DNA from: Microtetraspora sp. NBRC 16547 | Lineage (GTDB): Bacteria; Actinomycetota; Actinomycetes; Streptosporangiales; Streptosporangiaceae | Direction of reading: 5' to 3' | Length of the DNA stretch: 64,000 bases | Assembly: GCF_030268965.1 (NCBI RefSeq) | Contig: NZ_BSSE01000018.1 | Location: 62,001 to 126,000, forward strand | Shown: piece by piece, positions 863 to 27,385 of the stretch | How positions within the stretch are numbered: the stretch's first letter is position 1 | How the letters are laid out: each line of letters begins with the position of its first letter | Notes under the pieces: model-generated | What the model was told of the DNA's origin: nothing | What the model saw: the letters and a program-made list of their open reading frames with translations, nothing else | Databases searched by the model: none | Program-made: the position numbers and the translations under genes

Positions 863-949
863 CCTGGATGACCTCCTCGACCATGCGGAACCCGGTATTC
901 GCTCCCCATACCCATAAAGGGACAGATCACCAGAATTCGGGCAGACCGC

Positions 950-2817: not shown

Positions 2818-2996
2818 CCCCACCTCCCGGGTCCCGCCACGAGAGTGGCCGACCACGTGTTAGCCGCGAGTAAGACGATCCGGGTCGAATCCGGGATCGC
2901 ATCCGGGCTCGTCCCGGCTTATCCGCGTTTAGCACCGCGCCCGCTGGAGTTGGGCCGCGCCCCGGGCGAGCGACCCGCGGCGCGAAGGAGCGCACC

Positions 2997-7805: not shown

Positions 7806-8019
7806 CTCGTAGTGCACCTGCCCCTTCACGTTATTCGACGGCGGAGACTTCGAAATAGGCGATACCAGCCTGTGTACCCCGCAGCCAGGAGACAGCCACG
7901 CCTTTCCTGATCGACAACTGGGATGATTACCGACTCTTGCCGCAATGAAGAGAACCACCGGCCGCCGAATAACGAAATATCGATAAATATGGCAAACGGC
8001 GGGCGGACACGACAAATGT

Positions 8020-9260: not shown

Positions 9261-9328
9261 ATCGAACACATTATCGGTTGGCTCATGTCGCCGTGATGGA
9301 AACCGAAACCGGATGTCCGCCAAGGTCG

Positions 9329-13174: not shown

Positions 13175-13332
13175 GGGTGGCTCTCACCGGCTCTTGGCTG
13201 CTCTGAGGGTGGCTCTCACCGGCTCTTGGCTGCTCTGAGGGTGGCTCTCACCGGCTCTTGGCTGCTCTGAGGGTGGCTCTCACCGGCTCTTGGCTGCTCT
13301 GAGGGTGGCTCTCACCGGCTCTTGGCTGCTCT
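13173..13332. repeat. Five perfect 32-bp tandem repeats
   Basis: Five head-to-tail copies of a 32-bp unit start at GAGGGTGGCTCTCACC; units begin at 13173, 13205, 13237, 13269 and 13301. Each holds a small GGTG-GCTCT-CACC stem. The first unit overlaps the TGA stop of the response regulator, and 11 bp of partly matching sequence precede it. The unit is not a multiple of 3 and no gene runs through it. It may work as a multi-hairpin 3' end or be a variable-number repeat. Confidence 0.95.
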
Positions 13333-13390
13333 GACGTCGGCTGCTCCCGCCGTCCGGCCCGCCGGCCGAGCCTCTCGGCAGGTCGCGGGG

Positions 13391-13414
13391 TATAATTCGG
13401 TTGTTGCCTAACAA
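13391..13414 (+). promoter_or_regulatory. Promoter (-10 TATAAT) and overlapping operator for the SdpR-like gene
   Basis: A perfect TATAAT lies at 13391-13396, rare in this GC-rich DNA. An inverted repeat TTGTT-GCCT-AACAA follows at 13401-13414, where transcription should start, 13 bp before the ATG. A repressor bound there would block initiation, which fits autorepression by the ArsR/SdpR-type protein. Confidence 0.6.
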
Positions 13415-13426
13415 GGAAACGATGCG

Positions 13427-13765
13427 ATGAATCTCGTCTACGAGGCCCTGGCGCACCCCACGCGCCGGCAGATCATCGCGCTGTTGCGGCGGGGAGACCT
13501 CCCCGCGGGAGAGATCGCCGCCCACTTCGACATCGCCAAGCCCACGCTCTCCGGCCACCTGCGAGTGCTGCGCGAGGCCGGCCTGGTGCTCGGAGAGCGG
13601 CACGGCACCTCGATCGTCTACAGCCTCCAGCTCTCCCTGCTGGAGGAGTCGCTGGCCGCGCTTCTCAACCTCTTCCAGATCGACTCGGCCGGGCCCCCTG
13701 AACCGGATTCGTCCTCTCCTGACCCGACCCCGGCCCCCATCACGACGAGGAAAGGATCCCCATGA
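13427..13765 (+). CDS. ArsR/SdpR-family autorepressor
   Basis: 112 aa. The winged helix-turn-helix spans nearly the whole N-terminal 85 residues: EALAHPTRRQIIALLRRG, PTLSGHLRVLREAGLV, then the wing ERHGTSIVYSL. A Pro/Ser-rich tail follows. There are no metal-binding Cys motifs, as in SdpR rather than metal-sensing ArsR. The downstream gene encodes an SdpI-like membrane protein with a 4-bp overlap. In Bacillus, SdpR represses sdpRI and is titrated by SdpI when the toxin SdpC is bound. Confidence 0.85.
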   Translation: MNLVYEALAHPTRRQIIALLRRGDLPAGEIAAHFDIAKPTLSGHLRVLREAGLVLGERHGTSIVYSLQLSLLEESLAALLNLFQIDSAGPPEPDSSSPDPTPAPITTRKGSP

Positions 13766-14463
13766 CCAAGGACGCCGTTCCCGAGGACCCCGTGAACGAG
13801 ACCCGGCTGAACACGCGCCCCGGCCTCATCGCCACCGCCGCCGCCCTGCTCCTGACCGGCGGGATCTCCCTGTGGGGGTGGCAAAACCTCCCCAACGACG
13901 CGCGGATCCCCATGCACTGGGGGATCTCCGGCGAGGCGGACCGCTTCGGCGGCAAGACGGAGGCCCTGCTGACGCTCCCCCTGATCATCCTCGGGATCGG
14001 CGCGCTGCTCGCCTTCTCTCCCCGCCTGGCGCCCAGGCAGCAGAACACGGCGCGGTCGCGGCACGTCTACTTCGCCGCCTGGATCGGCATGCTGGTCCTG
14101 CTCACGGTCCTGCACGCCGTGAGCATCATCAACGCGGCCGGCGGCGATCTCCCCATGACCAGGATCATCGTGGCCCTGCTCGGCGCCCTCTTCCTGGTGC
14201 TGGGGAACTACCTGCCCAAGTCGCGCAGCAACTGGCTCGCGGGCGTACGCACCCCCTGGACCCTCGACAGCGACCTGGCCTGGAGGCGCGCCAACCGCCT
14301 GGCGGGGTTCCTCTTCGCCGGGTTGGGCCTGGTGCTCCTGGTCACGGCCTTCATCCTGCCGATCCCCGCGCTGTTCGCCGTCCTCCTCGCCGGAGTGGTG
14401 ATCTGCTCGATCGGCCCGACCGCCTACTCATGGTGGACGTGGCGCGCCGAAAACGGCCGCTGA
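13762..14463 (+). CDS. SdpI-family membrane protein (DUF1648 + SdpI)
   Basis: 233 aa with six predicted membrane segments. The N-terminal DUF1648 signature is present (LPNDARIPMHWGISGEADRF), and the C-terminal SdpI signature GNYLPKSRSNWLAGVRTPWT lies near residues 152-171. Its start overlaps the SdpR-like stop (ATGA). In Bacillus SdpI is both immunity protein and signal receptor. No SdpC-like toxin gene is visible here, so the pair may sense a foreign toxin or membrane stress. Confidence 0.87.
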   Translation: MTKDAVPEDPVNETRLNTRPGLIATAAALLLTGGISLWGWQNLPNDARIPMHWGISGEADRFGGKTEALLTLPLIILGIGALLAFSPRLAPRQQNTARSRHVYFAAWIGMLVLLTVLHAVSIINAAGGDLPMTRIIVALLGALFLVLGNYLPKSRSNWLAGVRTPWTLDSDLAWRRANRLAGFLFAGLGLVLLVTAFILPIPALFAVLLAGVVICSIGPTAYSWWTWRAENGR

Positions 14464-14551
14464 CCGGAGCCCTGCCACGCACCGGAGCGCGCCTCGGGCC
14501 GGAGCCGGGTCGCCGTACGGTCTCGCCCGGCGCGAGGACTCTCGGCCAAGG

Positions 14552-15757
14552 TCACGTCTTCCTGGCCCGGGGCCGGCGCAGCAACAGGAAGGCGCCAAGC
14601 AGGAAGAGGAGCCCGATCGCCACCCCGGTGCCGCCGATGAGCAGGTAACCGGAGTCGATGGGCGGGTGCGTGAAGGGCTCGTCGGTCGGGCCGTTCCCGA
14701 AGTACTTCTTCCCCTTGTACGGCACCGCCGCGATCTCGGCCTTCGTCGCCGATCCCGCCGCCGTGACCGCCGCCGCCGCGTCCACCTGCCCGTAGCCCAC
14801 CAAGGGATTCCAGCCGCCGGTCGGATGCTTGGCGGTCTTCGTCAGGATGTCCCGCACCTGACCGGGGTTCAGATCCGGGTTGCGCGACAGCATCAACGCC
14901 ACCACCCCGGCGGCGAGCGAGCACGAGTCAGACGTGCCATCACCCTGCCGGTAGCCGCCGGTGTTAGAGGCGCCGACAATCCCCACGCCCGGAGCGGAGA
15001 TCGCGTTGTAGGTGTGCACCTGGGAGAACTCGGCGCGGCGGCCGTCCGGCCCCGATGCCGCCACGCCGATCACTCCCGGATAGGCGGCGGGATAGGACAC
15101 GTTATTGTTCGCGTCCTTGTCGAAGTTCTTGTCAAAGATGCTGCTGGTGCCGCCGCCGTTGCCCGAAGCGGCCACGATGACCACGCCCTTGGCGAGCGCG
15201 TAGCCCACCGCGGCGGCCGTGTCCTCCTCGTAAATGTCGAAGAACGCCCACTCACTGGTGCCGAGGGACATCGAGATGACCTTGGCGCCCTTGTCGACGG
15301 CGTACTTAATACCCTTGGCCAGCGCCTCACGGGCCTTCCAGGCCTGTTTGTCCGACTTGAGCAGCTTTTTGGCCTTCTCGCGGGCAGGGTCCTTATGGTC
15401 GTAGATAACGCGCACCGACAGGACCCGCGCCTGGGGCGCCACGTTCAGCACATTGGACGCCATCGCGGTCCCGTGCTCTCCCCAGTACGACATTCCCGGG
15501 CGGGCACCGCCGCCGACGAAGTCAGGTCCCGTGATCACCCGCCCCTTGAGCGCGGGGTGGTTCGCCACGACGCCCGTATCGAGGACCGCGACCGTGACCC
15601 CCTTCCCCTGCGCCGCCTTGTGCGCCTGGGGCACGTTCATGGCCGCCACTTCCCAGTGTGGTGGCGCGTCCGCCGCCGCTGGCGGCGCTGTACCGGTGGC
15701 GAGCAGGACGCCGAACACAGGGGTGAGCAGAGCCGTACCGGCCCGCTTGCGCATCAT
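14552..15757 (-). CDS. Membrane-anchored subtilisin-like serine protease (S8, mycosin-like)
   Basis: 401 aa from the ATG at 15757; a GTG at 15763 overlapping the upstream stop is an alternative. Signal peptide residues 1-29 are followed by the S8 domain: D60 (AVLDTGV), H95 (EHGTAMAS), oxyanion N200 (ASGNGG) and Ser276. The last lies in GTSDSCSLAAG rather than the usual GTSxAxP, so the proline is missing. A C-terminal TM helix (YLLIGGTGVAIGLLFLLGAF) and basic tail anchor it outside the membrane. That architecture is like type VII-associated mycosins, but no ESX genes are near. It lies 2 bp after the proline-rich membrane-protein gene, so the two are probably co-expressed. Confidence 0.87.
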   Translation of the reverse strand: MMRKRAGTALLTPVFGVLLATGTAPPAAADAPPHWEVAAMNVPQAHKAAQGKGVTVAVLDTGVVANHPALKGRVITGPDFVGGGARPGMSYWGEHGTAMASNVLNVAPQARVLSVRVIYDHKDPAREKAKKLLKSDKQAWKAREALAKGIKYAVDKGAKVISMSLGTSEWAFFDIYEEDTAAAVGYALAKGVVIVAASGNGGGTSSIFDKNFDKDANNNVSYPAAYPGVIGVAASGPDGRRAEFSQVHTYNAISAPGVGIVGASNTGGYRQGDGTSDSCSLAAGVVALMLSRNPDLNPGQVRDILTKTAKHPTGGWNPLVGYGQVDAAAAVTAAGSATKAEIAAVPYKGKKYFGNGPTDEPFTHPPIDSGYLLIGGTGVAIGLLFLLGAFLLLRRPRARKT

Positions 15758-15759
15758 CG

Positions 15760-17055
15760 TCACGCTCCGAACGTGAGATCGGTCAGCCGCCACGCGACGG
15801 ACTTTGCCAGCCCCTTAGCGGTCTCGACCCAGGGGGAGCGGTCCTGCCACTGGTCGATCGGCGCCCGCCCCCAGGGTTGTGGGAGCCTGCCCGGCTTTCT
15901 GCCGTCGGCGGGTCCGGCCGTGGCCACCACGAAACAGGGCGTGTACGTATCCATCACGTAGTTTCCGCCGTCTCCGGTCCGCGCCCGGTCGTCCCACTTC
16001 GTTCCGGGTGCGGCCAGGGCGCGTACCGCGTGGTCCACCCGTTCATCGGACAGCTGGGCCAGCAGTGGTTCGAAAATACGCGGCCAGGCGGTGTCCTCCC
16101 GCTTCAGCGTGACGATGGCGATCGTCGCCGCGCTCCCACCGGTGTCGTCGACGTAGGTGGCGCGCACGGCCGCCACGCAACCGCTCTTGGCCGCCAGCTG
16201 GGCGAACTTTTGCGACAGCGCCTTGTCGCAGGAGGTGTCCTCCGAGATCGCGACTCGCGTCCAGCCGCGCTCGTCGTTCGGATCGCCCTGCTTCTTCTCC
16301 GGGTCCTGCAGGCCGATCACATTGGGGAACAGCTTATCCACGGGCTCGTTGCGCCACAGGTTCCGCGCGTACTCCTGGTTGCGGATCTCCTGCCGGCTGT
16401 TGGAGATCGCTTGGGCGATCACAGCGCCACCTCCGAGCAGGGGCAGGAGGCCGATGGCGGCCGTGAGGATCCCTCCCACGATCCGGCCGGGGCCGCGCCG
16501 GGGCCTCTCCTCACCGGCGAATGGTTCCGCTGCGGGGTACTGCTGAGGCGCCGCCGGAGAGTACTGCTGAAACGGCGCCGCGGGAGGGGACTGCTGATAC
16601 GTCCCCGGTGGCTGCCCCGACGCATATTGCTGATACGGCGCCGCCGGTTGGCCCGGAGCGTACTGCTGCATCGTGGGCGGTTGCTCCGGCGCGTACTGCG
16701 GATACGCGGTCGGCGGTTGCTGCACCGCGGGCGGGTACGTGCCGTACCCCTGGTTCTGCCCTTGGGCTTGACCTGGTCCCGGCCAGGCGCCCTGTCCTGG
16801 AACCTGCCCTGGCCCCTGTTCTGGGCCTTGTCCTAGCCCCGGGCCTTGTCCAGGAACCGGGACCTGGCCGTGGCTTGGGGGCGGGAACTGCCCCGGCGCC
16901 GGTGGCGGATATGGGGCGGGCCACTGGCCATAGGGACCGGCGGGGTTGGGGGGATAGCCCGGGCCCGGCGGGTCCGGGGGATGCCCGGAGCCCGGGTCCG
17001 GGGGATTCGGAGGGTGTGCGGGATGCCCGGGATCTTGGGAGGGGGGATACACCAT
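15760..17055 (-). CDS. Proline/glutamine-rich single-pass membrane protein, partner of S8 protease
   Basis: 431 aa. Residues 1-180 are low-complexity Pro/Gly/Gln/Tyr with repeats such as QQYAPGQPAAPY. A single TM helix (about 192-216) follows, then a folded domain of about 210 residues with Cys residues in DTSCDK, KSGCVA and TPCFVV. A GGAGAG site precedes the ATG. The C-terminal domain should lie outside the membrane beside the co-encoded protease, perhaps as its substrate, chaperone or inhibitor. No named family is recognised. Confidence 0.7.
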   Translation of the reverse strand: MVYPPSQDPGHPAHPPNPPDPGSGHPPDPPGPGYPPNPAGPYGQWPAPYPPPAPGQFPPPSHGQVPVPGQGPGLGQGPEQGPGQVPGQGAWPGPGQAQGQNQGYGTYPPAVQQPPTAYPQYAPEQPPTMQQYAPGQPAAPYQQYASGQPPGTYQQSPPAAPFQQYSPAAPQQYPAAEPFAGEERPRRGPGRIVGGILTAAIGLLPLLGGGAVIAQAISNSRQEIRNQEYARNLWRNEPVDKLFPNVIGLQDPEKKQGDPNDERGWTRVAISEDTSCDKALSQKFAQLAAKSGCVAAVRATYVDDTGGSAATIAIVTLKREDTAWPRIFEPLLAQLSDERVDHAVRALAAPGTKWDDRARTGDGGNYVMDTYTPCFVVATAGPADGRKPGRLPQPWGRAPIDQWQDRSPWVETAKGLAKSVAWRLTDLTFGA

Positions 17056-17190
17056 CTCTCTCCGGTTGTGCGTGCCGTACGGCGAGACCGCTCACTCGAA
17101 GGGGTCGGCCGCCCGACCGGAATGTGGGGCGGTACCGGGCGCACGCCGGATTTAACCTCTCCGCCCCCGATCATCACATTCGGCACTATA

Positions 17191-17490
17191 GTCACCTTCC
17201 TCCCACACGCCGCCGACCGGCTGCAGCGCACCGCGTCCTGGCTGGAGGGCCTCGAAGGCGGCATCGACTACCTGCACAGGGTGATCATCGAGGACCGGCT
17301 CGGATCTGCGCCGAACTCGACGCCGCCATGGCCCGCCACGTGTCGGACCACACCGGCGAGTGGCGCGCCACGCTGGAGGACCCCGAGAAGCTGCGCCGCT
17401 TCGTGTCCTTCGTGAACGCGCCGGACACCCCGGACCCGAGCATCGTCTTCGAGCCCGAACGCGACCAGATCAAGCCCGTCATATTGAAGA
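17191..17490 (+). pseudogene. Remnant of nitrite reductase large subunit (NirB) C-terminus, frameshifted
   Basis: In frame 1 the translation RTASWLEGLEGGIDYL, then EDRLG, matches the C-terminal part of assimilatory NirB. A single missing base near 17306 then shifts the frame. Two frames later ICAELDAAMARHV, TLEDPEKLRRFVSFVNAPD and a terminal VFEPERDQ continue the same family. The rest of nirB (FAD, 2Fe-2S and sirohaem parts) is absent, as is nirD. It is a decayed 3' fragment left after deletion or rearrangement. The match is from my knowledge of the family, not a search. Confidence 0.75.
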
Positions 17491-17524
17491 TCATCCGGCC
17501 ACGGGGGATGCCCGCGACGTTGAC

Positions 17525-17689
17525 TAGTGCCCCAACCGGCAAGGTTTGCCCGGTAGGAGCGGTGTCCAGGGTGGTGCATCGCAAGGCGGAGGAGGAGGTC
17601 GTAGCGGAGCCTACGGGCGACGACGACAACGCGGCGAGGTGCCGCCCTGGGCGACGCGACGGGGCAAAGATTGACGGGCGGGGCACTGG
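17525..17689. mobile_element. MITE-like element, longer copy (165 bp)
   Basis: It begins CTAGTGCCCC and ends GGGGCACTGG, so the ends are inverted repeats with one mismatch. The first 57 bp recur at 36653-36709 with one substitution. No transposase frame fits inside. If CTAG is a target duplication, the termini are TGCCCC/GGGGCA, which would suit an IS5-like mobiliser, but this is inference. It directly follows the nirB remnant. Confidence 0.6.
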
Positions 17690-17720
17690 CATGAGATCTA
17701 ACGCGAAATCGCACCCGTCC

Positions 17721-17742
17721 TGCCGGCCGTCACGGGCCGGCA
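17721..17742. repeat. Hairpin upstream of the oxidoreductase gene
   Basis: TGCCGGCC-GTCACG-GGCCGGCA, an 8-bp perfect stem ending 22 bp before the ATG at 17765. It could be an operator or the remnant of another insertion. Confidence 0.45.
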
Positions 17743-17764
17743 TGTCATCAGATGGGAGCGAAAC

Positions 17765-18877
17765 ATGAAGCAGACTCAGACGATTCCAGAGACGTTTCTC
17801 GGCGTCGGTTACACAAGAGACCGAGCTGGGCTGCCGCTTGAGGCGGTGCGTGTTCCCGTCCCGCAGCCGGCGGCCGACCAGGTTCTGATCCGCGTCGCCA
17901 CCTCGTCGCTCAACCCGCTGGAGTACAAGCTGGCCGACCTCAATTTCATGGGACGGACGCCCCCCGTCGTTCTCGGTCTTGACCTCGCTGGCGTGGTGGT
18001 CGCCGTGGGCCATGGTGTGAGTGGCGTAGCCGTCGGCGACGCGGTGGCCGCCATGGCCGATTTGAACGGTGATGGCGGCTGGGTCGCAACGGGCGGGAGC
18101 GGAGGGGAAGGCGGCTATGCCGTCGCACGCCGATTCCTCACCGTCCGCAAGCCGCCATCCCTGAGCTTCCGCGATGCGGCGGCGCTTCCGATGTGCTTCC
18201 TGTCCGCTTTCGTGAGCCTTTACCGAGCCGTCCAGGCCGGTGACACGGTCTATATCCCGGGCGGTGGGGGCGGCGTCGGGCATCTCGCCGTGCAGATGGC
18301 GGCGCATGCCCTGGGGGCTGGACTGGTCATCAGCAGCGGCAGCACGCCGCAGTCGATGGCGCTGGCCCGGCAGTCTGGCGCCCACCTCACTTTCAATTAC
18401 AAGCGCGACGACATCGCCGCCGAAATCTCGAAGCTGACCAGTGGGCGGGGCGTTGACCTTGTCTTCGACGCCACCTACAGCGAGCAGGGCTTTGTCGAGA
18501 CCGCGAAGACCGTTCGGCGGGGTGGCAGTTGGATCGTGCTCGGTGTCGGCCCCGGCAAGACGACACGCTTGGTCGAGACGCATAACCCGGTGGATGCCAT
18601 CCTGGCCGAGCGGGGCGCCAAGCATGTCAACGTCAATCTGCTGCGTTACTTCTCCGAACCCGCCACGCTGGACAGCGAGGCGCGTGGCTTTCTCCAGCGC
18701 GGGATGGCTCTGGCGATGGAGTGGGCGACGCAGGGACTTGTGGTCCCGCATGTCAGTCAGACCATCGACAGCACCGTTGAGGCGATCAATGCGGGACTGC
18801 AGTCGCTGAAGGCGGGCCGTGGCGTACTGGGCAAGGTGGCGGTGATCGTGGATCGCGACCTGGCCGCGGGGAAGTGA
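17765..18877 (+). CDS. Zinc-independent MDR-family oxidoreductase (quinone oxidoreductase/alcohol dehydrogenase-like)
   Basis: 370 aa. The N-terminal GroES-like fold (VLGLDLAGVVVAVGHGV) is followed by a Rossmann domain with the dinucleotide motif GGGGGVGHLAVQMAAHA. The catalytic and structural zinc ligands of true alcohol dehydrogenases are absent, which points to the quinone-oxidoreductase branch and NAD(P)H use. Codon choice seems less GC-extreme than in neighbouring genes. It lies between a MITE-like element and a LuxR fragment, so recent acquisition is plausible. A GGGAGC site precedes the ATG. Confidence 0.82.
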   Translation: MKQTQTIPETFLGVGYTRDRAGLPLEAVRVPVPQPAADQVLIRVATSSLNPLEYKLADLNFMGRTPPVVLGLDLAGVVVAVGHGVSGVAVGDAVAAMADLNGDGGWVATGGSGGEGGYAVARRFLTVRKPPSLSFRDAAALPMCFLSAFVSLYRAVQAGDTVYIPGGGGGVGHLAVQMAAHALGAGLVISSGSTPQSMALARQSGAHLTFNYKRDDIAAEISKLTSGRGVDLVFDATYSEQGFVETAKTVRRGGSWIVLGVGPGKTTRLVETHNPVDAILAERGAKHVNVNLLRYFSEPATLDSEARGFLQRGMALAMEWATQGLVVPHVSQTIDSTVEAINAGLQSLKAGRGVLGKVAVIVDRDLAAGK

Positions 18878-18897
18878 CGGGCGGTCGCCTGTTTTCC

Positions 18898-18957
18898 CAC
18901 GCCGCCCGGCTGTTCATCACCGAGGCTACGGTCAAGACGCACCTGCTCAACATCTAG
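18898..18957 (+). pseudogene. Fragment of a LuxR-type helix-turn-helix
   Basis: Twenty codons reading AARLFITEATVKTHLLNI and then a stop match the DNA-recognition helix of NarL/LuxR response regulators, which normally continues with YAKLG. There is no start, no receiver domain and no rest of the HTH. It is a leftover of a deleted regulator gene. Confidence 0.6.
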
Positions 18958-18968
18958 CAGCTTCCGCA

Positions 18969-18995
18969 GCTTTTGCCGCCTTCAGCGGCAAAAGC
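18969..18995. terminator. Hairpin between the oxidoreductase region and the nuclease/ATPase operon
   Basis: GCTTTTGCCGC-CTTCA-GCGGCAAAAGC, a perfect 11-bp stem. It probably insulates the operon starting at 19121. There is no long U-tract after the stem on the plus strand. Confidence 0.55.
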
Positions 18996-19120
18996 CCTTG
19001 GATATCCCCATCCCGAAAACTCCGGCAAATTCTGACAACTCCTGCAAAACCACTGCGTAACACAGGAGAGCCGGATAATCTCAGCCACCAAAGCACTACA
19101 TCCGGACTTCAGAGGTACCC

Positions 19121-20251
19121 GTGGCCTGGTCGTGGGGAGAGCTGCCTATAGGCCGCGTCGTGCGCCTCCAAGGGGCCGGCATGGAGGCCCTGACCCTGTC
19201 GATCGAGCCGTTGCCCGATGACGCCCCGGCGATCGTCACGTACTTCCCGAGCGAGGCGCGGTCCACCGCCGACATGGTGGCCTCGATGTTGAGCGCTATG
19301 GAAACGGCGGCCCTCGGCCTGTTCCCGGCGTGGCTGCCTGAGGCGGCGGGCATCGGCGGCCCGGGAGGCGCGGGCGCGCGGGCCGTACGTTCGCTCGCCC
19401 TGCGAGCGGCCCCGGCGACCGGCCACTTCGGCCCCTTCCTCGCCGACCTGGCCGAGCTCTCCGTCAGAAGGGCCGCTTCTGCCGTCGGTGGCGTCCCACC
19501 ACGGCTCGGGGCGAGGTTCACGCCGGAGGTACGGGCAACCGGCCTCGCTCGGGTCCTCGCCGCCGGGTTCCATCGGGCGCACGCGTCGATCCTCGTGGCT
19601 GTTCCGCCTGGCCTCTCGCCGGTCGCGGAGGAGATCCTCGTCGGAGCCTGCGAATGGCTCGCGCAGCGTGGCGGGCTGGGCGTCTGGCTGGCCGGCGCGC
19701 CCCTGGCCGCCGTCGACCGCCTGGAGACACGGACCGTACGGCTGTTCTCTCCGGAGTACGGAGACGTCGCCGCCGGAGACGCGACGAGGCCGCCCGCCAG
19801 ACTGCAGGGCGGCCACGGCCAGGCGAGCGAGCGGACCGACGGAAGCGAGACGACGAGCGGTTCGACGCCCGTCGCGGGCAGGCCGCATCCCGGAAGCGTC
19901 GTCGAACAGATCCTGGAAAGAGCCCTCTCCTCCTGCGCCTGGGCGGCCGGCCGGGCGTGGAACCAGTCGTACCAGTCACATCCCCTGGTGAATCCGATCC
20001 GCGTGGATCTGCTCTGGCGTGAGGAGCGCTGCGCCGTCGAGATCGACGGGTCCGACCACCGCGGTTCGGCGAAGTACGAGCGGGACCGGCAGCGGGACAT
20101 ACGGCTCCAGACTGACGGCTACGCCGTTTTGCGGTTCACCAACGAGCAAATCATGAGCGATCCGAAATCCGTGCTCAGCCAGATAGAGCGGTTCCTGCGG
20201 GCCCGTCGCCATGGAAAACACGGAAGCCCCCACGGAATCCCGAAAGGATAA
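19121..20251 (+). CDS. DUF559/Vsr-like PD-(D/E)xK nuclease with unknown N-terminal domain
   Basis: 376 aa from the GTG at 19121 with AGAGG upstream. Residues about 1-215 form an unrecognised Ala/Gly-rich alpha/beta region. After a linker, residues about 260-365 hold a DUF559-like endonuclease fold: NPIRVDLLW, then CAVEIDGSDH, KYERDRQRD and LRFTNEQI. The Asp and the ExD of the PD-(D/E)xK core are intact, so nuclease activity is likely. It is the first gene of a three-gene unit, 3 bp from the wHTH-like gene, followed by a dual ATPase. This suggests the ATPase delivers or controls DNA cutting. Restriction-like defence is inferred, not shown. Confidence 0.75.
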   Translation: MAWSWGELPIGRVVRLQGAGMEALTLSIEPLPDDAPAIVTYFPSEARSTADMVASMLSAMETAALGLFPAWLPEAAGIGGPGGAGARAVRSLALRAAPATGHFGPFLADLAELSVRRAASAVGGVPPRLGARFTPEVRATGLARVLAAGFHRAHASILVAVPPGLSPVAEEILVGACEWLAQRGGLGVWLAGAPLAAVDRLETRTVRLFSPEYGDVAAGDATRPPARLQGGHGQASERTDGSETTSGSTPVAGRPHPGSVVEQILERALSSCAWAAGRAWNQSYQSHPLVNPIRVDLLWREERCAVEIDGSDHRGSAKYERDRQRDIRLQTDGYAVLRFTNEQIMSDPKSVLSQIERFLRARRHGKHGSPHGIPKG

Positions 20252-20254
20252 GAC

Positions 20255-21109
20255 ATGCCCGAAAAGGCGTTGACGTTCTCCGAGGTCGCAATACTGCTGG
20301 TTCTGATGGCCGAGGCCGACGAGATTTCCAATCCGGAACTCAAGGAACGCTACGGCGTGACGCTGACAGGAGACGCGCGCAAGAAGCTGAACGACCTGAA
20401 GTGGGTTGAGAGCCGGAAGCAGGGCCGCGCCTACGCGCACATGCTCACCGACACCGGTTGGGCCCACATCGCCGGGATGGAGGTGCAGGCGGTCATCGGC
20501 AAGCCGAACGTCGGTGGAACAGCCGTGGCGGCGGTACGTGCCCTGGTCGCCGGTTTGCAGCGGTTCCTGGACCGGACCGACCAGAGGTATTCGGACATCT
20601 TCACCCCCCAGGACGACACGGAACCCTCCAACGCCTCACAAAACGACAGCGGTCTCACCCCGGCAGCGGACGACGACGCCGCGCTCATGGCCCTCAACGG
20701 AACATCCCCCGCTTCGCACAACGATTCCTCCACCACCTCCGCTGACTGCCTGACCCCCTCCAGCGGGCAGGCGGCCCCGGCCCCTTCCACGCCGAAGGAA
20801 GTACCGTCCCCGGTCTCCCCGACCAGGGCCGCCCCGGGCTCGGAGACCGACCTCATGACCCGCATCCGGGCCACATACGCCGAACTGGCCAAGGAGCCCG
20901 GCGCCTGGGTGAGCCTCACCCGACTCCGCCCCCTGCTCAGCGATGTGCCGAGAGAGGATCTCGACGAAGCACTCAGGCGGATGAACCGCATGCCAGGTGT
21001 GAACATCGTTCCCGCGTCGGATCAGAAGGCGCTCACCTGGCAGGACCGGGACGCGGCCGTGATCATCGGCGACCAGGACAAGCACTTCCTCTGGATCGGC
21101 GCGCGATGA
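20255..21109 (+). CDS. Winged-helix-like adaptor protein with disordered middle
   Basis: 284 aa. The N-terminal 85 residues (FSEVAILLVLMAEADEISN, LKERYGVTLT, KLNDLKWVESR) look like a winged helix. A Ser/Thr/Pro-rich linker (about 110-195) follows. The C-terminal segment (DLMTRIRATYAELAKEPG, VSLTRLRPLLSDVPREDLDE) looks like a second winged helix of the kind seen in DNA-binding accessory subunits. The ATPase start overlaps its stop (ATGA). Probably a DNA- or protein-binding bridge between nuclease and ATPase. The family is not recognised. Confidence 0.65.
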   Translation: MPEKALTFSEVAILLVLMAEADEISNPELKERYGVTLTGDARKKLNDLKWVESRKQGRAYAHMLTDTGWAHIAGMEVQAVIGKPNVGGTAVAAVRALVAGLQRFLDRTDQRYSDIFTPQDDTEPSNASQNDSGLTPAADDDAALMALNGTSPASHNDSSTTSADCLTPSSGQAAPAPSTPKEVPSPVSPTRAAPGSETDLMTRIRATYAELAKEPGAWVSLTRLRPLLSDVPREDLDEALRRMNRMPGVNIVPASDQKALTWQDRDAAVIIGDQDKHFLWIGAR

Positions 21110-24100
21110 CGACACGCGAGTTGAGCGCCCTCGGGGCCCTCAGGTTCAACTACACCCACGTTCCCGACGACGTGTGGCGCCCTTCGCCGTTCCACGTGGA
21201 GAGCCTGCACCGGCACACCACGCGCATCCTTCTCACCGGCGTGGCCGAGGCCAAGGACAGCCGCGACTCCAACCCGATCGGCGTGGTCGTCCAGGGCCAA
21301 CGAGGCACCGGCAAGACCCACCTGCTCGGCTGGCTGCGCGAGCAGGTGCAGCACGACGGCGGTTACTTCTTCCTGGTGGGCCTGCTCGACGCGAAGGGCT
21401 TCTGGGAGAGCACCGTGGTTTCGATGTTCGACAGCCTGTCGCGTTCTGGAACGAGCGGCGAGAGTCAGTTGACCACCTTCCTGGAGCGTCTGTCAGCGCT
21501 GGTGGACGTGCCGCGTATGGTGCGACGAGCCGTGTCCGGGAAAACGACACTCTCGAAGGAGGCCCTCGACACGTTCATCGAGGGGCTGCGTCGCTTCGAC
21601 CGGCAGATCGGCCGTGACTCGCAGGACACCGCGAGAGCACTCGCGTTGCTCGCCTCCCACGACCTCAACGCGCAGGACATCGCAGACTCGTTCCTGTCCT
21701 CAGCGCCGGAGGAAGAGCCCGGCGAGCGTGCGCAGTGGGGTATTCGTCAGGTCCAGAAGTCTCCTCAGGAGATCGTCCGGGATCTGTCCCGGCTGCTTTC
21801 CCTCACTGGGCCGTCCGTCATCGCCATTGACCAGATAGACGCCCTTCTCGCGCAGTCATGGGTGACTACTGACGGCAACGCGACCCCGGACGGGCGCGAG
21901 CTGGTCAAGGTCGAGCAGGTTGCGCATGGGCTGATGGCATTGCGCGAGGTCACCCGCCGCACGTTGACCGTCGTCTCGTGCATCCCGGCAACATGGGTGC
22001 TCATCGAGGAGTACGCCACCGACACCGTACGAGATCGCTTTCGGCAGGCACTTCAGCTCATGACGATCCCCGATGCCGAGACCGGGCGGCTCCTCGTGGC
22101 GAAGCGGTTCGAGGCGCAATTCGGCGCGGTCGGCTTCGAGCCGCCGTACCCCACCTGGCCCGTCAGGGCGGAAGCGTTCGAGGACGCGCCCGACTACACC
22201 GCGCGCCAACTGCTGATCAAAATCGACAACCACATCCAGTCCTGCCTGCTCGATGAGGAGATCAGGGAGCTGGAGCACTTCGGGGGCTCGGCCGTGGTGA
22301 TTCCGCGCCCTGGGCCGACTCCGCCGCCCGAGGATCTCGCCGTACTCGACACGAGGTTCGCGGAGCTGAGGAAGGCCGCGGACATCCGGACGGCGCTCTC
22401 GCCCGCGACGGAGGACGTGGCGATGCCCGCGCTCCTCTCGGCCGGGCTCGCCGCGTGGGTCGCGGGGCTCGGCGACGCCGGGCGGGAGTTCACGCAGGAT
22501 CCCCCGCCGAGCTCGAAGCCCCCGCTGCACGCGCGCCTGCGCCGGATCCTGGACGAGCACACCGAGGACGAGGCGCACTGGGCCTTCCGCGCGATCGCCT
22601 CGGAGAACGCCGTTGCCGCGCTGAACCGGCTGCGCAACGCGTCTGTGGCCACGGGGCTGGACGCCGACGTTCCGAAGCGGCGGCTGTTCGTACTGCGCAA
22701 CGCCAAGTGGGCGAACGGCCCGCGCACCCGTGAGGCTCTCGCCGCCTTCGAACGGGCGGGCGGGCGGATCCTCGGCCTCGACACCGAGGACCTCACGATG
22801 ATGGCCGCGCTTCGCACCCTGATCGACGAGGATCCGCCCGGCCTGCGGACCTGGCTCGCCTCCCGGAGGCCCGCCGCGGACATCAAGTTGTTCAACGAGG
22901 CGTTGGAGGACGCCTGGACCGTTCCGGACGGTCCGCCCGCCCTCCCCACCCTCTCCGAGCCGGCTGTGCCGACTGCTCCGACGGTGCCGGTCGTTCCACC
23001 TGTTCCGGCACCCCAGACCGTCGCGGCGGATCCGGTCGCCCCGGCGATCCAGAACGCCCCGGGCGCATCCACGACGCCTCCGCATACGGAACCGGTCCCG
23101 AGCACCGCGCCGTACGTCACGATCGGCAGGGCGATGAGCGATGGTGCCCCGATGCGCGTGGACCTGGAGACGCTCAGGAAGCACACCGCGATCTTCGCGG
23201 GCTCCGGGTCGGGGAAGACGGTGCTCATCCGCCGCCTGGTCGAAGAATGCGCGCTCCAGGGCGTGTCCGCGATCGTGCTCGACCCGAACAACGACCTGTC
23301 CCGCCTGGGCGATCCGTGGCCGGAGGCTCCACCGTACTGGGGCGAGGGAGACGCGACGCGAGCCGAGGACTATCTCGCGAACACCGACGTGGTGATCTGG
23401 ACCCCGCGCTGGCAGCGGGGCCGGCCGCTCAGCTTCCAGCCGCTGCCGGACTTCGCGAGCGTCACCGACGACCCGGACGAGTTCGACGCGGCGCTGGACG
23501 TCGCGGTCGCCTCAATCGTGCCGCGCGCGAGACTGGGCGCGAACACGCACAAGGCGCAGCGCGGCCAGGCCGTGCTACGGGAGACGGTCAGGTACTACGG
23601 GCGACAGCGGGGACGCACCACCCTGAAAGGTCTCATCGAGCTGCTGTCGGATCTGCCCGACGGCGTGAGCGATCTCGACGGCGGAGCGAAGATCGCGGCG
23701 GACCTGGCCCAGACCCTGACCGCAGCCATGGTCAACGACCCGATGTTCGGCGGCCAGGGGACACCGGTGGACCCCGGATTGCTGCTCACACCACCCGACG
23801 GCAAGCGGGCACGGATCTCGGTGATCAGTTTCATCGGTCTGCAGGGCGACGAGCAGCGGCAGAGCTTCGTCAACCAGCTCCAGATGGCGCTGTTCGCCTG
23901 GATCAAACGGAACCCGGCCGGCGACCGGCCGCTGGGCGGGCTGTTCGTGATGGACGAGGCGCAGACGTTCGCGCCGTCCACCACGCTGACCCCGTGCACC
24001 CGGAGCACGCTCGCGCTCGCGTCCCAGGCCCGCAAGTACGGCCTCGGCCTGGTGTTCGCCACCCAGGCCCCGAAGGGGCTGCACAACCAGATCCCCGGAA

Positions 24101-24360
24101 ACGCGGCCACCCAGTTCTTCGGCCTGCTCAACAGCCCGGTGCAGATCGCCTCCGCGAAGGAGATCGCCCAGGCCAAGGGCAGCGGCGTGGACGAGATCTC
24201 GCGGCTCGGCTCCGGACAGTTCTACGTGGCATCCGAGGGAACGCCGTTCGTGAAAGTGCGGGTCCCGATGTGTCTGAGCCATCACCCCAAAGCGGCGCTC
24301 ACCACTGATGAGGTGATCGAAAGGGCGAACAGCTCCATCTCACGCACAAGCGAACAATGA
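21106..24360 (+). CDS. Large dual ATPase: N-terminal AAA domain plus C-terminal HerA/VirD4-like translocase
   Basis: 1,084 aa. The N-terminal P-loop is GQRGTGKT (residues 64-71), with Walker B IAIDQID around D242, typical of AAA/STAND-like NTPases. A Pro/Val/Ala-rich linker near residues 615-660 separates a second NTPase: Walker A GSGSGKT (699-705), LDPNNDLSRLG, Walker B VMDE (948-951), and ATQAPKGLHNQIPGNA. This resembles the HerA/FtsK/VirD4 (DUF87-like) DNA pumps. HerA-type ATPases often work with nucleases in DNA end processing or phage defence. Two full ATPases in one chain beside a DUF559 nuclease is unusual. Confidence 0.8.
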   Translation: MTTRELSALGALRFNYTHVPDDVWRPSPFHVESLHRHTTRILLTGVAEAKDSRDSNPIGVVVQGQRGTGKTHLLGWLREQVQHDGGYFFLVGLLDAKGFWESTVVSMFDSLSRSGTSGESQLTTFLERLSALVDVPRMVRRAVSGKTTLSKEALDTFIEGLRRFDRQIGRDSQDTARALALLASHDLNAQDIADSFLSSAPEEEPGERAQWGIRQVQKSPQEIVRDLSRLLSLTGPSVIAIDQIDALLAQSWVTTDGNATPDGRELVKVEQVAHGLMALREVTRRTLTVVSCIPATWVLIEEYATDTVRDRFRQALQLMTIPDAETGRLLVAKRFEAQFGAVGFEPPYPTWPVRAEAFEDAPDYTARQLLIKIDNHIQSCLLDEEIRELEHFGGSAVVIPRPGPTPPPEDLAVLDTRFAELRKAADIRTALSPATEDVAMPALLSAGLAAWVAGLGDAGREFTQDPPPSSKPPLHARLRRILDEHTEDEAHWAFRAIASENAVAALNRLRNASVATGLDADVPKRRLFVLRNAKWANGPRTREALAAFERAGGRILGLDTEDLTMMAALRTLIDEDPPGLRTWLASRRPAADIKLFNEALEDAWTVPDGPPALPTLSEPAVPTAPTVPVVPPVPAPQTVAADPVAPAIQNAPGASTTPPHTEPVPSTAPYVTIGRAMSDGAPMRVDLETLRKHTAIFAGSGSGKTVLIRRLVEECALQGVSAIVLDPNNDLSRLGDPWPEAPPYWGEGDATRAEDYLANTDVVIWTPRWQRGRPLSFQPLPDFASVTDDPDEFDAALDVAVASIVPRARLGANTHKAQRGQAVLRETVRYYGRQRGRTTLKGLIELLSDLPDGVSDLDGGAKIAADLAQTLTAAMVNDPMFGGQGTPVDPGLLLTPPDGKRARISVISFIGLQGDEQRQSFVNQLQMALFAWIKRNPAGDRPLGGLFVMDEAQTFAPSTTLTPCTRSTLALASQARKYGLGLVFATQAPKGLHNQIPGNAATQFFGLLNSPVQIASAKEIAQAKGSGVDEISRLGSGQFYVASEGTPFVKVRVPMCLSHHPKAALTTDEVIERANSSISRTSEQ

Positions 24361-24430
24361 GTGACGATCTACCTCTATCTCGATTTACCTGGATATTGTG
24401 ATCTCCACCTGTTCGAGGGGAAGGCGGGCG

Positions 24431-26257
24431 ATGGCTACGGGTGGGTCCGAGGTGTCTCTGGGCAGCCGGTACGTGCTTCTCGACGAGATCGGCGCCGGTG
24501 GGATGGGCACCGTCTGGCGGGCGCGGCACCGGGAGACCGGGGAGACCGTGGCGGTGAAGCTGCTGCGCGAGAGCCTCACCGGCGACCAGGACCTGGTGCT
24601 GCGGTTCGTGCAGGAACGCAACGTGATGCGGACCCTGCGCCACCCCAACATCGTCACGGTGCGCGACTTCGTCATCGAGGGAGAGCGTCTCGCCCTCGTG
24701 ATGGACCTCGTCGACGGCGGAGACCTCCGTACCCTGCTCCGGCAGCACGGCACGCTGCCCCCGGCCGAAGCGGCGCGGCTGATGGCCCAGGTCGCCGACG
24801 CGCTCGCGGCCGCGCACGCCGCGGGCGTCGTGCACCGCGACATCAAGCCGGGAAACGTCCTGATCGACGGCGCCACCGGGCAGGTACGGCTGACCGACTT
24901 CGGCGTGGCCCGCATCGTCCACGGCCCGGGCATCACCCAGACCACCTCGATCATCGGCACGCCCGCGTACCTGCCTCCCGAGGTGGCCGACGGCAGCGCC
25001 CCCACGCCGGCGGTGGATGTCTACGCCATCGGCCTGATCCTTTACGAACTGCTCGCCGGACGCCCGCCGTTCGTCGGCGACCACCCCATGGCCCTGCTCC
25101 GGCAACATGCGACGGCCATGCCCCGCCGGCTGCCCGGGATGCCCGACGCCCTGTGGGCGGTCATCGCCGCCTGCTCCGCGAAGGATCCGGCCGAGCGCCC
25201 CGCCGCCGGGCAGGTGGCGGCGGCACTGCGCGCGGCCGCGCCCTCGCTGGCCGGACTCCCCGCCCTGCCGCCGGTCACCAGGAGCGACGCGCCGTCCGTC
25301 ACCTCCGAGCCACTCCAATCGGCGGGCTCCCCCGCGGCGGCCGTATGGGCCTCTTCCCCACCCTCCCGTGCGACCGACACACCCGGCGCGGCCGGCATCC
25401 CCGATCAGGCCAGCTCGTCCGGTACGGGTTCCAGCACCGGGGAGGTTCTCCGCGCCGGCGAGGAGACCGTGGCCTCCAAGCGGGGCAAGCGCACCCGGCA
25501 ACGGGTGATCATCACCGCGACGACCGCCACGGCCCTGGCGCTCAGCACGGCGGCCGTGGCCGTCGTAGCCCCGTGGCAGGCGTCGGACACGGGAGACGAG
25601 CGGAACTCTGCCGCGTCAATCAAACTCACCGGCGGTGAACCCGGCTCCGGAACCGCGACCCCCGCTCCGTCCGACGCCACGGGGGGCTCGCCCACGCCGT
25701 CGCACAAGGTACGGCCGACGCGGACCCGCACCCCGGACACGAGGGTCTCCACGCCGCCCGCGCAGCCGCCCCCGACGAAACAGACAGCACCCGCGACGCA
25801 GGGCACCCGTACGCCCCAGCCGCGGCGATCGGCGACCGTGGCGGCCGACCCGAAGCCGGAGGAGAAGATCACGGTCGGCTCCACGCCCCAGGACACGCAA
25901 CCGAAGTGGCAGTGCCGCTCGTGGATCTCCACAGGCGCCGGCACGGGCACGGAGATGTCGCCCTGCATGGCCATAGTGGGCGACGTCTTCTACCTGATGG
26001 GCCGGATCAGAGGATCCAGTTCGGTCCGGTCGGACGTACACGTCCAGCTGTACAACACCGACGCCGACGTCAACGTCTCGCAGCCCTTCATCTGCTCGGG
26101 CGTCTCCCCCTCCCGTGACGGCGCGATCGCCACCTGTGGACCGTTCACCACCACGGCCCCGCATGCGGGGGCCAAGCACGACGTCCGCCAGCGGTGGAGG
26201 AAGACGGGAACGGCCAATTTCGGCGGCGGCGCGGAAAGCCCCTGGGTCCTCTGGTGA
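24431..26257 (+). CDS. Transmembrane Ser/Thr protein kinase (PknB-like)
   Basis: 608 aa from the ATG at 24431 with GAGGGGAAGG upstream. Kinase domain residues 10-270: GAGGMGTV, AVKLL (Lys43), HRDIKPGN (Asp137), DFGVAR and GTPAYLPPE, all intact. A juxtamembrane Ser/Pro linker leads to one TM helix (about residues 360-380, ATTATALALSTAAVAVVAP). An extracytoplasmic Thr/Pro stalk ends in a small four-Cys domain (WQCRSW, SPCMAI, FICSGV, ATCGPF). No PASTA repeats are present, so the ligand is not peptidoglycan of the PknB type. It lies 70 bp after the dual ATPase, on the same strand; functional linkage is open. Confidence 0.9.
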   Translation: MATGGSEVSLGSRYVLLDEIGAGGMGTVWRARHRETGETVAVKLLRESLTGDQDLVLRFVQERNVMRTLRHPNIVTVRDFVIEGERLALVMDLVDGGDLRTLLRQHGTLPPAEAARLMAQVADALAAAHAAGVVHRDIKPGNVLIDGATGQVRLTDFGVARIVHGPGITQTTSIIGTPAYLPPEVADGSAPTPAVDVYAIGLILYELLAGRPPFVGDHPMALLRQHATAMPRRLPGMPDALWAVIAACSAKDPAERPAAGQVAAALRAAAPSLAGLPALPPVTRSDAPSVTSEPLQSAGSPAAAVWASSPPSRATDTPGAAGIPDQASSSGTGSSTGEVLRAGEETVASKRGKRTRQRVIITATTATALALSTAAVAVVAPWQASDTGDERNSAASIKLTGGEPGSGTATPAPSDATGGSPTPSHKVRPTRTRTPDTRVSTPPAQPPPTKQTAPATQGTRTPQPRRSATVAADPKPEEKITVGSTPQDTQPKWQCRSWISTGAGTGTEMSPCMAIVGDVFYLMGRIRGSSSVRSDVHVQLYNTDADVNVSQPFICSGVSPSRDGAIATCGPFTTTAPHAGAKHDVRQRWRKTGTANFGGGAESPWVLW

Positions 26258-26295
26258 TCCCCGCCCGGGCCGTACGGCCCGGGTGGGGAGGAGGG

Positions 26296-26709
26296 TCAGC
26301 CGAGGGGGACGCAGATCGCGTAGACCTCGACGCTGATCTTCTGCTTCATCGGGTTCACCACGACGAAGTCCCACGCGTCCTGGACGCTGCCGGGAGCGTC
26401 GCTCGTGCTGCCGGGCGCGCTGACCGGGAAGGCCACCGGCTTGCGCGGGTCGTGCGCGCCGTTGAAGGCCTGACCGCCGCCCACGGCGCGCCTGCCTTCT
26501 CCGCACACCACGTTGGTACTGAGGATTCCGCGGCCAGGGACCTTCCGTGTCTCCTTCACCACGGTCACCTCCGATCCGCGGAGCCCGGTCGACCCGCTGC
26601 TCCGGTCAGCCGAGGCGATCCCGCCCAGCGCGACCGCGGCTGTCGCCAGCACCCCCGCCCCGGCGCCGACCAGTGCGATCTTCCTGCCCAGAGGCCCGAG
26701 AAGCTCCAC
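26296..26709 (-). CDS. Small secreted protein, unknown family
   Basis: 137 aa. The signal sequence spans residues 8-34 (KIALVGAGAGVLATAAVALGG, cut after ASA). The mature domain has two Cys (VVCGEGRRAVGGGQ and YAICVPLG), which may form a disulfide. Repeated short beta-rich motifs resemble small actinobacterial exported proteins of unknown function. It is convergent with the kinase gene, 38 bp apart. Confidence 0.65.
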   Translation of the reverse strand: MELLGPLGRKIALVGAGAGVLATAAVALGGIASADRSSGSTGLRGSEVTVVKETRKVPGRGILSTNVVCGEGRRAVGGGQAFNGAHDPRKPVAFPVSAPGSTSDAPGSVQDAWDFVVVNPMKQKISVEVYAICVPLG

Positions 26710-26961
26710 GTGATTCCCCTTGTCGATCTGATACGAGCTGACATACGAGCTGACACTGACAAGAGCGCGGCCGCCGACGCCGTGGCACCGGGCAGACGTT
26801 CCCTAACGAACCGTTAGATGCGGCGTTGGCCCGGATTGTTCTCCCCGACTGTTCTCCCGGATTGCTCTCGCGCCCCGGCTCCGCGTTCGTTCGTGCCGTG
26901 CGGCGCCGTCGGCATCGCCGCGCCAGTACGGTGATCTTCGCGCTTGATGATCTTTGAATGA

Positions 26962-26974
26962 CAACCTAAGGTTG
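26962..26974. promoter_or_regulatory. Palindrome CAACCT-A-AGGTTG before the zinc-finger gene
   Basis: Perfect 6-1-6 inverted repeat ending 6 bp before the ATG at 26981. Position over the ribosome-binding region suggests an operator or translational hairpin. AAGG within it could be the Shine-Dalgarno sequence. Confidence 0.45.
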
Positions 26975-26980
26975 CCAAGC

Positions 26981-27385
26981 ATGGAGCCATCAGAATTACT
27001 CACACAGGCGCGGTCGCGGTCGATCGATCCGGCGGACCCCCTGGAGACCCTGTCAGCCGCGATCACGCTGAGCGTCGAGCTGAGCCGTGACGCGGACGCC
27101 CTGCTCGATCTCGCCGTACGCGATGCCCGTGAGGCCGGCGCCTCCTGGACGGTCATCGGAGAGCGGTTCGGTTTCTCGAAGCAGGCCGCCAGGAAACGCT
27201 TCACCCAGCCCTTCGCCGGCCGCCATCTGGCGAACCGCCGCAAGAAGCGCGACGCGGCCTGCTCCTTCTGCCGTCAGACCCCTGGGCCGCGCATCCAGAT
27301 GGTGCACGGCGAGGCCGGCCGGATCTGCGGCACCTGCGTGTCACTGGCCGGCGACATCGTGGCCGACCTCAACAAGCGCCGCTGA
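26981..27385 (+). CDS. Orphan ClpX-type C4 zinc-finger protein with helix-turn-helix-like N-terminus
   Basis: 134 aa. Residues about 30-75 (VRDAREAGASWTVIGERFG, FSKQAARKRF) look like a small HTH found in actinobacterial proteins. The C-terminus has a zf-C4_ClpX finger: CSFC, about 20 residues, then CGTC (GRICGTCVSLAGDIV). In ClpX this finger mediates dimerisation and adaptor binding, but no AAA domain follows here. A DNA-binding regulator linked to proteolysis is a reasonable guess. An in-frame TTG upstream (26954) lies over the palindrome and is less likely. Confidence 0.7.
   Translation: MEPSELLTQARSRSIDPADPLETLSAAITLSVELSRDADALLDLAVRDAREAGASWTVIGERFGFSKQAARKRFTQPFAGRHLANRRKKRDAACSFCRQTPGPRIQMVHGEAGRICGTCVSLAGDIVADLNKRR

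Follow-up and report, generated by a model that had tools for sequence, protein, structure and literature searches.

What kind of system is encoded by the three tightly coupled genes at positions 19121-24360 of a 64,000-nucleotide stretch of DNA from the soil actinobacterium Microtetraspora sp. NBRC 16547 (the window), and which of the three belong together as a unit? An earlier note on this DNA had described a nuclease, a winged-helix-like protein and a double ATPase, coupled by a 3-bp gap and an ATGA overlap, and had proposed that they act together as a candidate defence system. The gene structure was borne out, as all three open reading frames (ORFs), here named P1, P2 and P3, are co-directional, open and intact in the window:

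19121-20251, plus strand: P1, GTG start, 376 amino acids (aa), an N-terminal part of about 250 aa followed by a C-terminal DUF559 nuclease domain; the putative effector of the window locus.
20255-21109, plus strand: P2, 284 aa, 3 bp after P1; core component, a probable DNA-binding (winged-helix-like) protein.
21106-24360, plus strand: P3, 1084 aa, overlapping P2 by ATGA; an ORC/Cdc6-like AAA+ part, a middle region, a Pro-rich linker and a HerA/FtsK ATPase.

The host genome carries a single P3 gene, two further matches spanning only the HerA P-loop region (~3e-4). We consider it probable, at roughly three chances in four, that the window encodes the form of a modular anti-invader system that is armed with a nuclease; in such a system a HerA hub would engage invading DNA and switch on exchangeable effectors.

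The linkage of the genes was surveyed in the loci of relatives: a pattern scan of contigs yielded 281 matches (265 from relatives), of which the best 80 were taken as a first survey. P2 stands directly upstream of P3 in all 80 loci (tblastn, E up to 1e-3), aligning only partly in some, and P1 was found by tblastn in 61, being partial near a contig end in L004 and L081 and in two pieces in L058. The association exceeds what chance would give, and the proposal that the three genes form a unit is upheld as far as linkage goes, but the conserved unit is P2 plus P3 and the nuclease is exchangeable. Among the 19 loci without P1, the partner is a divergent gene with trypsin-like, P-loop and WD40 parts in 11, PDC-M02A/B in two, AbiU in one and an HTH-TPR gene in one; no partner is evident in three (L007, L071 and L078), and one locus (L060) is cut by the contig end.

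The divergent partner is a gene of ~1,340 aa whose N-terminal region is trypsin-like and which also has a P-loop and WD40 repeats; the trypsin-like region and the P-loop were assigned from our reading of the alignment. It is accompanied by Trypco1 in nine of its 11 loci (PF19493, 2.4e-18 in L038); the two loci without Trypco1, L041 and L051, are also the two whose trypsin-like region lacks the conserved His and Ser that the other nine keep. PDC-M02A/B lie directly upstream of the core in L066 (DUF4365, 1.5e-13) and L083, and AbiU/AIPR follows 12 bp downstream in L063. The partner in L054 gave weak HTH and TPR matches under the cut-off, with a P-loop by our reading, and its family recurs elsewhere. 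L083, from Amycolatopsis, has its module between genes that, as read from their translations, resemble two Wadjet-type sets (1-4111 and 13088-18354). Macro-domain-like genes, again by our reading, were noticed near the core at L071:13125-13472, at L162:13706-14230 and in the L033 cluster. A nucleoside-phosphorylase-type domain, a frequent effector domain elsewhere, was read in a gene downstream of the core at L184:11690-12919.

The same exchange was seen on a larger scale in the family of G286 (150 genomes), by inference Micromonosporaceae since G529 carries a locus identical to L054 of Rhizocola. Of 138 P2 places, 117 were kept and 21 dropped for covering only part of the P2 profile, so that P2 over most of its profile is present in 91 of the 150 genomes (93 at E 1e-10); two of the kept places, G492:C784 and G500, are short or weak. 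Fifty-six places adjoin P1 and 21 the trypsin-like gene, none adjoins both, and 40 adjoin neither. The trypsin-like protein gave 30 matches: all 21 that reach its C-terminus stand divergently beside P2, as does none of the nine N-terminal-only matches. Four P1 places do not adjoin a listed P2 (G490:C67 and three in G514). The 40 remaining places were fetched, and P3, looked for only there, is present in 38 of them. Their partners were identified with Pfam and PADLOC models on the representatives L168, L171, L178, L182, L183 and L192 and by BLAST in the others. Over this survey and the first, representatives matched the models of AbiU at 3.5e-115, PDC-M02A at 2.9e-66, PDC-M02B at 1e-123, PDC-M55A at 7.2e-148, PDC-M55B at 1.5e-72 and CARF-HEPN at 3.4e-128. 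AbiU lies directly downstream of P3 in 16, with gaps of -4 to +31 bp in every case; PDC-M55A/B-type genes occur in seven, five divergent with an Abi_2-type gene and two co-directional (P3 is incomplete as called in L170 and L172); an HTH-TPR protein occurs in five; and PDC-M02 occurs in three, with M02A only in L180 as called. A CARF-HEPN-type gene is nearby in two, but both loci belong to a single genus and the link may be fortuitous. L158 and L159 lack P3 and keep just a remnant of P1. The last five places (L156 and L160, which lie at contig ends, and L161, L164 and L195) are either empty or hard to assign.

Partner labels were then set against the phylogeny of P3. A quick tree of 87 rows with SH-aLRT (Shimodaira-Hasegawa-like approximate likelihood ratio test) support only, which left out L047 (P3 under 900 aa) and L037 (no P3 called), set the trypsin-like group apart by a branch of support 100, amid rows that bear P1. 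A larger quick tree (LG+G4) contained 124 rows, namely all labelled loci with P3 of at least 600 aa plus L161 and L195, with long branches, L195 and L096 included, flagged. At least ten partner changes are needed on the P3 tree for the 113 rows with a partner (seven labels), at least eight when CARF is left out (111 rows, six labels) and at least 19 for all 124 rows with ten labels, three of which are none, cut off and unclear. The well-supported branches of the 124-row tree alone force at least seven changes for P1 and at least five for AbiU. Clustering of partner labels on the tree is expected from relatedness.

The distribution of the module is patchy. P3 (E up to 1e-20) was found in 21 of 99 other relatives, one of which (G027) has a fragment only, and in six of 395 other genomes of a phylum sample, the raw tallies being 22 of 100 and 7 of 396 with the own genome counted. 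With the own genome again included, full-length P2 matches occur in 21 of the 100 genomes, all of them P3 genomes, and two more are partial (G019 and G008:C17); P1 matches that cover its N-terminal part occur in 16, every one a P3 genome and 15 with P1 beside P3 on one contig, G003 being split over two. The remaining P1 matches span the DUF559 end only. In G003, Microtetraspora glauca (L004 1-596; G003:C58 and C62), a transposase-like frame lies beside the short piece of P1, which may be interrupted. The six loci of the phylum sample besides the window have P1 in two (L101 and L102), Trypco1 with the trypsin-like gene in L098, PDC-M02B in L103 and no evident partner within ~1.5 kb in L099 and L100. 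PDC-M02A/B adjoin the core in G006 and G029 too. The genome surveys overlap (L007 is L139 of G047, and L054 is L177 of G529) and are not independent.

P3 was not found in G002, of the same genus as the host, where a homologue of the Ser/Thr kinase gene that adjoins the module in the window comes straight after a homologue of the gene at 7386-7817; G002 also lacks the other genes of the 9.8-18.9 kb stretch, so it offers no clean empty site. In G001, also of this genus, the module stands between a homologue of the gene at 13762-14463 and the kinase gene. Matches in a plasmid collection came from three records: an 11.85-Mb Nonomuraea record, a Tsukamurella replicon and a 1.57-Mb Methylobacterium plasmid (Alphaproteobacteria). 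Profiles confirm all three genes on the latter two, with values of 4.6e-34 (P1), 1.6e-27 (P2) and 6.5e-255 (P3) on the Methylobacterium plasmid. On the Tsukamurella replicon (L093, NZ_LR134464.1, a so-called plasmid), the trio lies between rplN and rpsQ in a ribosomal-protein cluster, beside a PIN/VapB pair.

What the proteins may do was judged from their families and conserved residues. The reading of P1 as a DUF559-like nuclease is confirmed by Pfam (PF04480, 4.8e-13, 49.4 bits against a cut-off of 20.6), and the P1 family profile matched 3hrl in the PDB at 5.2e-12. Its putative catalytic residues lie in the following domain:

19988-20194, plus strand: predicted DUF559 / Vsr-like nuclease domain of P1 (aa 290-358), with D296, E307 and D309 (E-I-D-G) invariant.

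These three residues are the same in 25 of 25 aligned P1 proteins, those of Tsukamurella and Methylobacterium included, and the domain would, on its sequence, cut DNA.

Searches of Pfam, PADLOC and NCBIfam assigned P2 to no family with significance (best E values 0.033 to 3.7), in agreement with the earlier remark that it resembles no known family. Its N- and C-terminal parts are conserved and the linker between them is variable; it is probably a winged-helix, DNA-binding protein. A likeness of the P2 profile to calmodulin in the PDB (best 1.3e-5, the best 60 of 200 matches all being calmodulin or calmodulin fusions) was treated as chance similarity. Its C-terminal part also occurs outside the module:

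20849-21106, plus strand: P2 C-terminal domain (aa 199-284), found also in plasmid proteins and in those of other mobile elements.

Twelve plasmid records matched this domain, two of which are the module, and seven of the other ten were inspected together with L143 and L144. It is fused to a serine recombinase in L143:6585-7808 (Resolvase, 8.6e-26), makes up an 86-aa ORF in L144:6665-6925 and occurs in a 144-aa plasmid protein (L094:5839-6273), in three copies in a giant protein encoded behind a phage portal gene (L145) and in an SNF2-related giant protein (L095). This sharing suggests that P2 may recognise something of mobile elements.

P3 appears to combine two ATPases. In Pfam, its N-terminal part reached AAA_16 at 4.8e-7 (30.9 bits, under the cut-off of 32.6) and its C-terminal part DUF87/HerA at 3.3e-11; a match to an ORC-CDC6-like model was also under the cut-off (E 0.0059). 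HerA chains in the PDB match the P3 profile, and the best PADLOC model, mad8 (6.8e-21), covers the HerA part only (aa 680-1055). The parts of P3 are as follows:

21295-21318, plus strand: first Walker A of P3 (aa 64-71, GQRGTGKT), with K70 in 121 of 121 readable sequences.
21814-21840, plus strand: first Walker B (aa 237-245, ending in AIDQID), with Gln at the usual position of the catalytic Glu.
22288-22920, plus strand: middle region (aa ~395-605), where an inactive restriction endonuclease (REase) would be expected if P3 were a canonical HerA/FtsK capture protein (by analogy with the accessible part of PMC10853773).
23113-24330, plus strand: predicted HerA/FtsK ATPase (aa ~670-1075), with Walker A at 699-705, Walker B D950-E951, Arg finger R976 and sensor-1 Q987.

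Residues were counted in 124 aligned P3 proteins with zero to three gaps per column. Both P-loops proposed earlier (64-71 and 699-705) are confirmed by their invariant lysines, K704 being present in 123 of 123 sequences; D950 and E951 (122 of 122), R976 (123 of 123) and Q987 (122 of 122) are equally constant. The first Walker B reads D242-Q243-x-D245, that is D-Q instead of D-E, in 123 of 123 readable sequences, and R311 and R367 are conserved in the same AAA+ half. By our motif reading, Q243 occupies the position of the catalytic Glu.

Combined, these results point to the following sequence of events. P3 probably forms a ring-shaped DNA translocase of the HerA type, translocation being suggested because the HerA motifs are intact. 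Its AAA+ half would bind ATP but hydrolyse it poorly, because of the natural Glu-to-Gln change in Walker B, and may thus serve as a switch or clamp instead of a second motor. P2 would supply DNA or protein recognition and, because its C-terminal domain is common to plasmid and mobile-element proteins, may dock the complex on invading DNA, presumably of phages or plasmids, during entry, transfer or replication. Since the core is constant and the partners change, it is the core that would sense and switch: on engaging invader DNA it may activate or feed the effector, at the window locus P1, leading to DNA cleavage. In relatives the core would act through AbiU/AIPR, PDC-M02A/B, PDC-M55A/B, the trypsin-like/P-loop/WD40 protein (often with Trypco1), the HTH-TPR protein and perhaps CARF-HEPN. 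The proposal of a candidate defence system is sustained, the context lending good support to a defence role through the AbiU/AIPR, PDC-M02, PDC-M55, Abi_2 and CARF-HEPN partners and the patchy distribution. A broader idea seems to us evenly balanced between right and wrong: P2-P3 would serve actinobacteria generally as an immune hub, a single sensor-motor whose AAA+ half is kept from hydrolysis by a native Walker-B Gln and whose recognition domain is common to mobile-element proteins. This hub would drive at least six unrelated effector modules, and PDC-M02, PDC-M55 and some AbiU genes would be effector halves when beside the core.

Several observations weigh against this interpretation. No partner is evident in L007, L071, L078, L099, L100 (with ~1.5 kb of flank for the last two), L140 and L164, and because of such loci the core could work by itself or in trans. 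Nor do partners always exclude one another, since L030 has an HTH-TPR homologue upstream of P1. Pairwise hhalign of 12 families did not reveal a domain shared among the effectors that could be an adaptor, the only pair at 10% probability or more being P3 and the trypsin-like protein (11.3%, in the P-loop region), which leaves the link of unrelated effectors to one core unexplained. The trypsin-like region has lost His and Ser in 2 of 11 loci, has no Pfam match at E 0.01 and gave weak PDB matches (best E 0.02). Four P3 matches (G007, G025, G029 and G030) are flagged with an internal stop. P3 was found in no phage record, nor in viral contigs scanned with two short peptide patterns, a limited test, and in the window the module sits among genes common to relatives.

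The earlier note had seen flanks rich in decayed genes and mobile elements, as in a defence island. A TnpB-type gene and a LuxR-type remnant speak for the former, but the downstream genes, from the kinase gene onward, are also present in the same-genus genome without a P3 match, and the neighbourhood is not a clear defence island:

8109-9269, minus strand: TnpB/IS605 OrfB-type gene (Cas12f1-like_TNB, 4.5e-24), ~10 kb left of the module.
18901-18957: LuxR-type remnant, by our reading.
24431-26257, plus strand: Ser/Thr kinase gene adjoining the module, matching PD-T4-6 (3.4e-83) better than mad6 (7.3e-79).

A repeat search of 16500-27000 gave no convincing terminal repeats of the module.

Three other explanations were weighed. 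A HerA ATPase with a nuclease is the classical HerA-NurA arrangement, and P3 could pump any DNA end into P1 for host repair with P2 as the loader, in keeping with the tight coupling of the three genes and the match of PDB HerA chains to the P3 profile. Housekeeping repair is disfavoured because of distribution and partner exchange, the module being found in only 6 of 395 other genomes phylum-wide and not in a same-genus genome, and the same core standing beside the trypsin-like gene, AbiU or PDC-M55; we regard it as unlikely. Very unlikely, in our judgement, is that the core belongs to a mobile element, serving DNA transfer or maintenance, with the effector genes as stabilising toxins. Such a role would suit the occurrence of the P2 C-terminal domain in a fusion with a serine recombinase, in proteins of plasmids and in giant mobile-element proteins, and that of the module on the Methylobacterium plasmid and on the so-called Tsukamurella plasmid, there between ribosomal-protein genes. 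However, no relaxase, integrase or transfer gene was recognised among the 45 largest recurrent neighbour families, no phage record and, in the limited pattern scan, no viral contig carried P3, and most genera cluster on the P3 tree, consistent with long chromosomal residence, Dactylosporangium and others being scattered.

A further alternative, which overlaps the defence reading given above, is an abortive-infection switch without DNA pumping, in which the core would sense a phage protein or a blocked process, the effector would kill or stall the cell and HerA hydrolysis would act as a timer. Several partners are of Abi type, WD40/P-loop or CARF-HEPN, and DNA feeding does not easily account for those effectors that lack an obvious DNA substrate. 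The commonest partners apart from the trypsin-like gene (21 of 117 places) are nevertheless DUF559 (56) and AbiU/AIPR (16), AIPR proteins being nucleases, and the HerA translocase motifs are fully conserved. We hold this alternative to be possible but doubtful.

If the hub reading is correct, a single HerA-based core would account for several scattered defence candidates and would offer a clean test of one sensor driving a nuclease, an AIPR protein, an AAA ATPase pair or a protease-like protein. The invariant Walker-B Gln of P3 makes for a sharp biochemical prediction. Micromonosporaceae, the inferred family of the larger survey, are important for antibiotics, and barriers to phages and plasmids matter for genetics there.

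How, then, does the module compare with known systems? MADS consists of mad1-mad8. The best PADLOC match of P3 is mad8, and among the matches listed for ten window neighbours a mad model (mad6) appears for the kinase alone. Membership in MADS was rejected, as the HerA part alone matches mad8 and the mad6-like kinase also stands in the same-genus genome without a P3 match. No PDC model matched P2 or P3. The genes of PADLOC PDC-M02, PDC-M55 and AbiU adjoin P2-P3 in several loci, and PDC-M02A/B differ in also occurring without P2 beside them (L111 and L113, ~1.5 kb of flank covered). The NCBIfam anti-phage HerA models NF042943 and NF042944 gave P3 13.9 and 12.2 bits against cut-offs of 800 and 850. 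HerA is also known paired with SIR2. Like that pair and the two-gene HerA-DUF4297 system (PMC11291478, in its accessible part), the module joins a HerA ATPase to different effectors, whereas the extra AAA+ domain and P2 set it apart. The Trypco1-trypsin conflict modules of multicellular bacteria, as far as the accessible part of PMC7159879 describes them, resemble the present loci in having Trypco1 beside a trypsin-like gene and differ in that their partners are vWA/MoxR/VMAP proteins, whereas here the fixed neighbour is the P2-P3 core.

The closest published idea, within the accessible part of PMC10853773, is that of the HerA/FtsK capture systems with Orc/CDC6, which have been proposed to intercept invader DNA and lie in patchy or mobile neighbourhoods. 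Shared with the module is a HerA/FtsK ATPase with sensor-1 Gln and Arg finger. The capture systems also have an Orc/CDC6-type AAA+, which the AAA+ half of P3 recalls in matches under the cut-off, a winged helix-turn-helix (wHTH) protein, for which P2 is a candidate, and an active REase, to which P1 would correspond as a predicted nuclease. In the capture systems an inactive REase is typically inserted between the AAA+ part and its C-terminal wHTH. The module differs in having AAA+ and HerA in one polypeptide within a stable two-gene core, and in its effector, which is DUF559 in the window and elsewhere gives way to other proteins, some of them without an evident nuclease part. None of the terms 'DUF559', 'DUF4365', 'trypsin' and 'actinobacter' is used in the main text of PMC10853773, whose supplement may list such loci. 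BREX-related capture (BRC) systems, described as a later offshoot of HerA/FtsK capture in the accessible part of PMC12839542, share HerA/FtsK with the module, have an ORC/Cdc6 AAA+ and a wHTH component to which the AAA+ half of P3 and P2 may correspond, and also have PglZ, DUF4007 and others; PADLOC models gave no BRC-component match among ten window neighbours, a weak test for GNAT and TGT. No description of this gene combination was found in the literature searched, a search that most subscription papers, preprints and supplements lay outside. The module is thus not an uncharacterised system outside known kinds, as the earlier note might be taken to imply, since its parts recall HerA/FtsK capture (PMC10853773, as accessible); the parts themselves are of a known kind, and what is new in the system is a core with exchangeable effectors.

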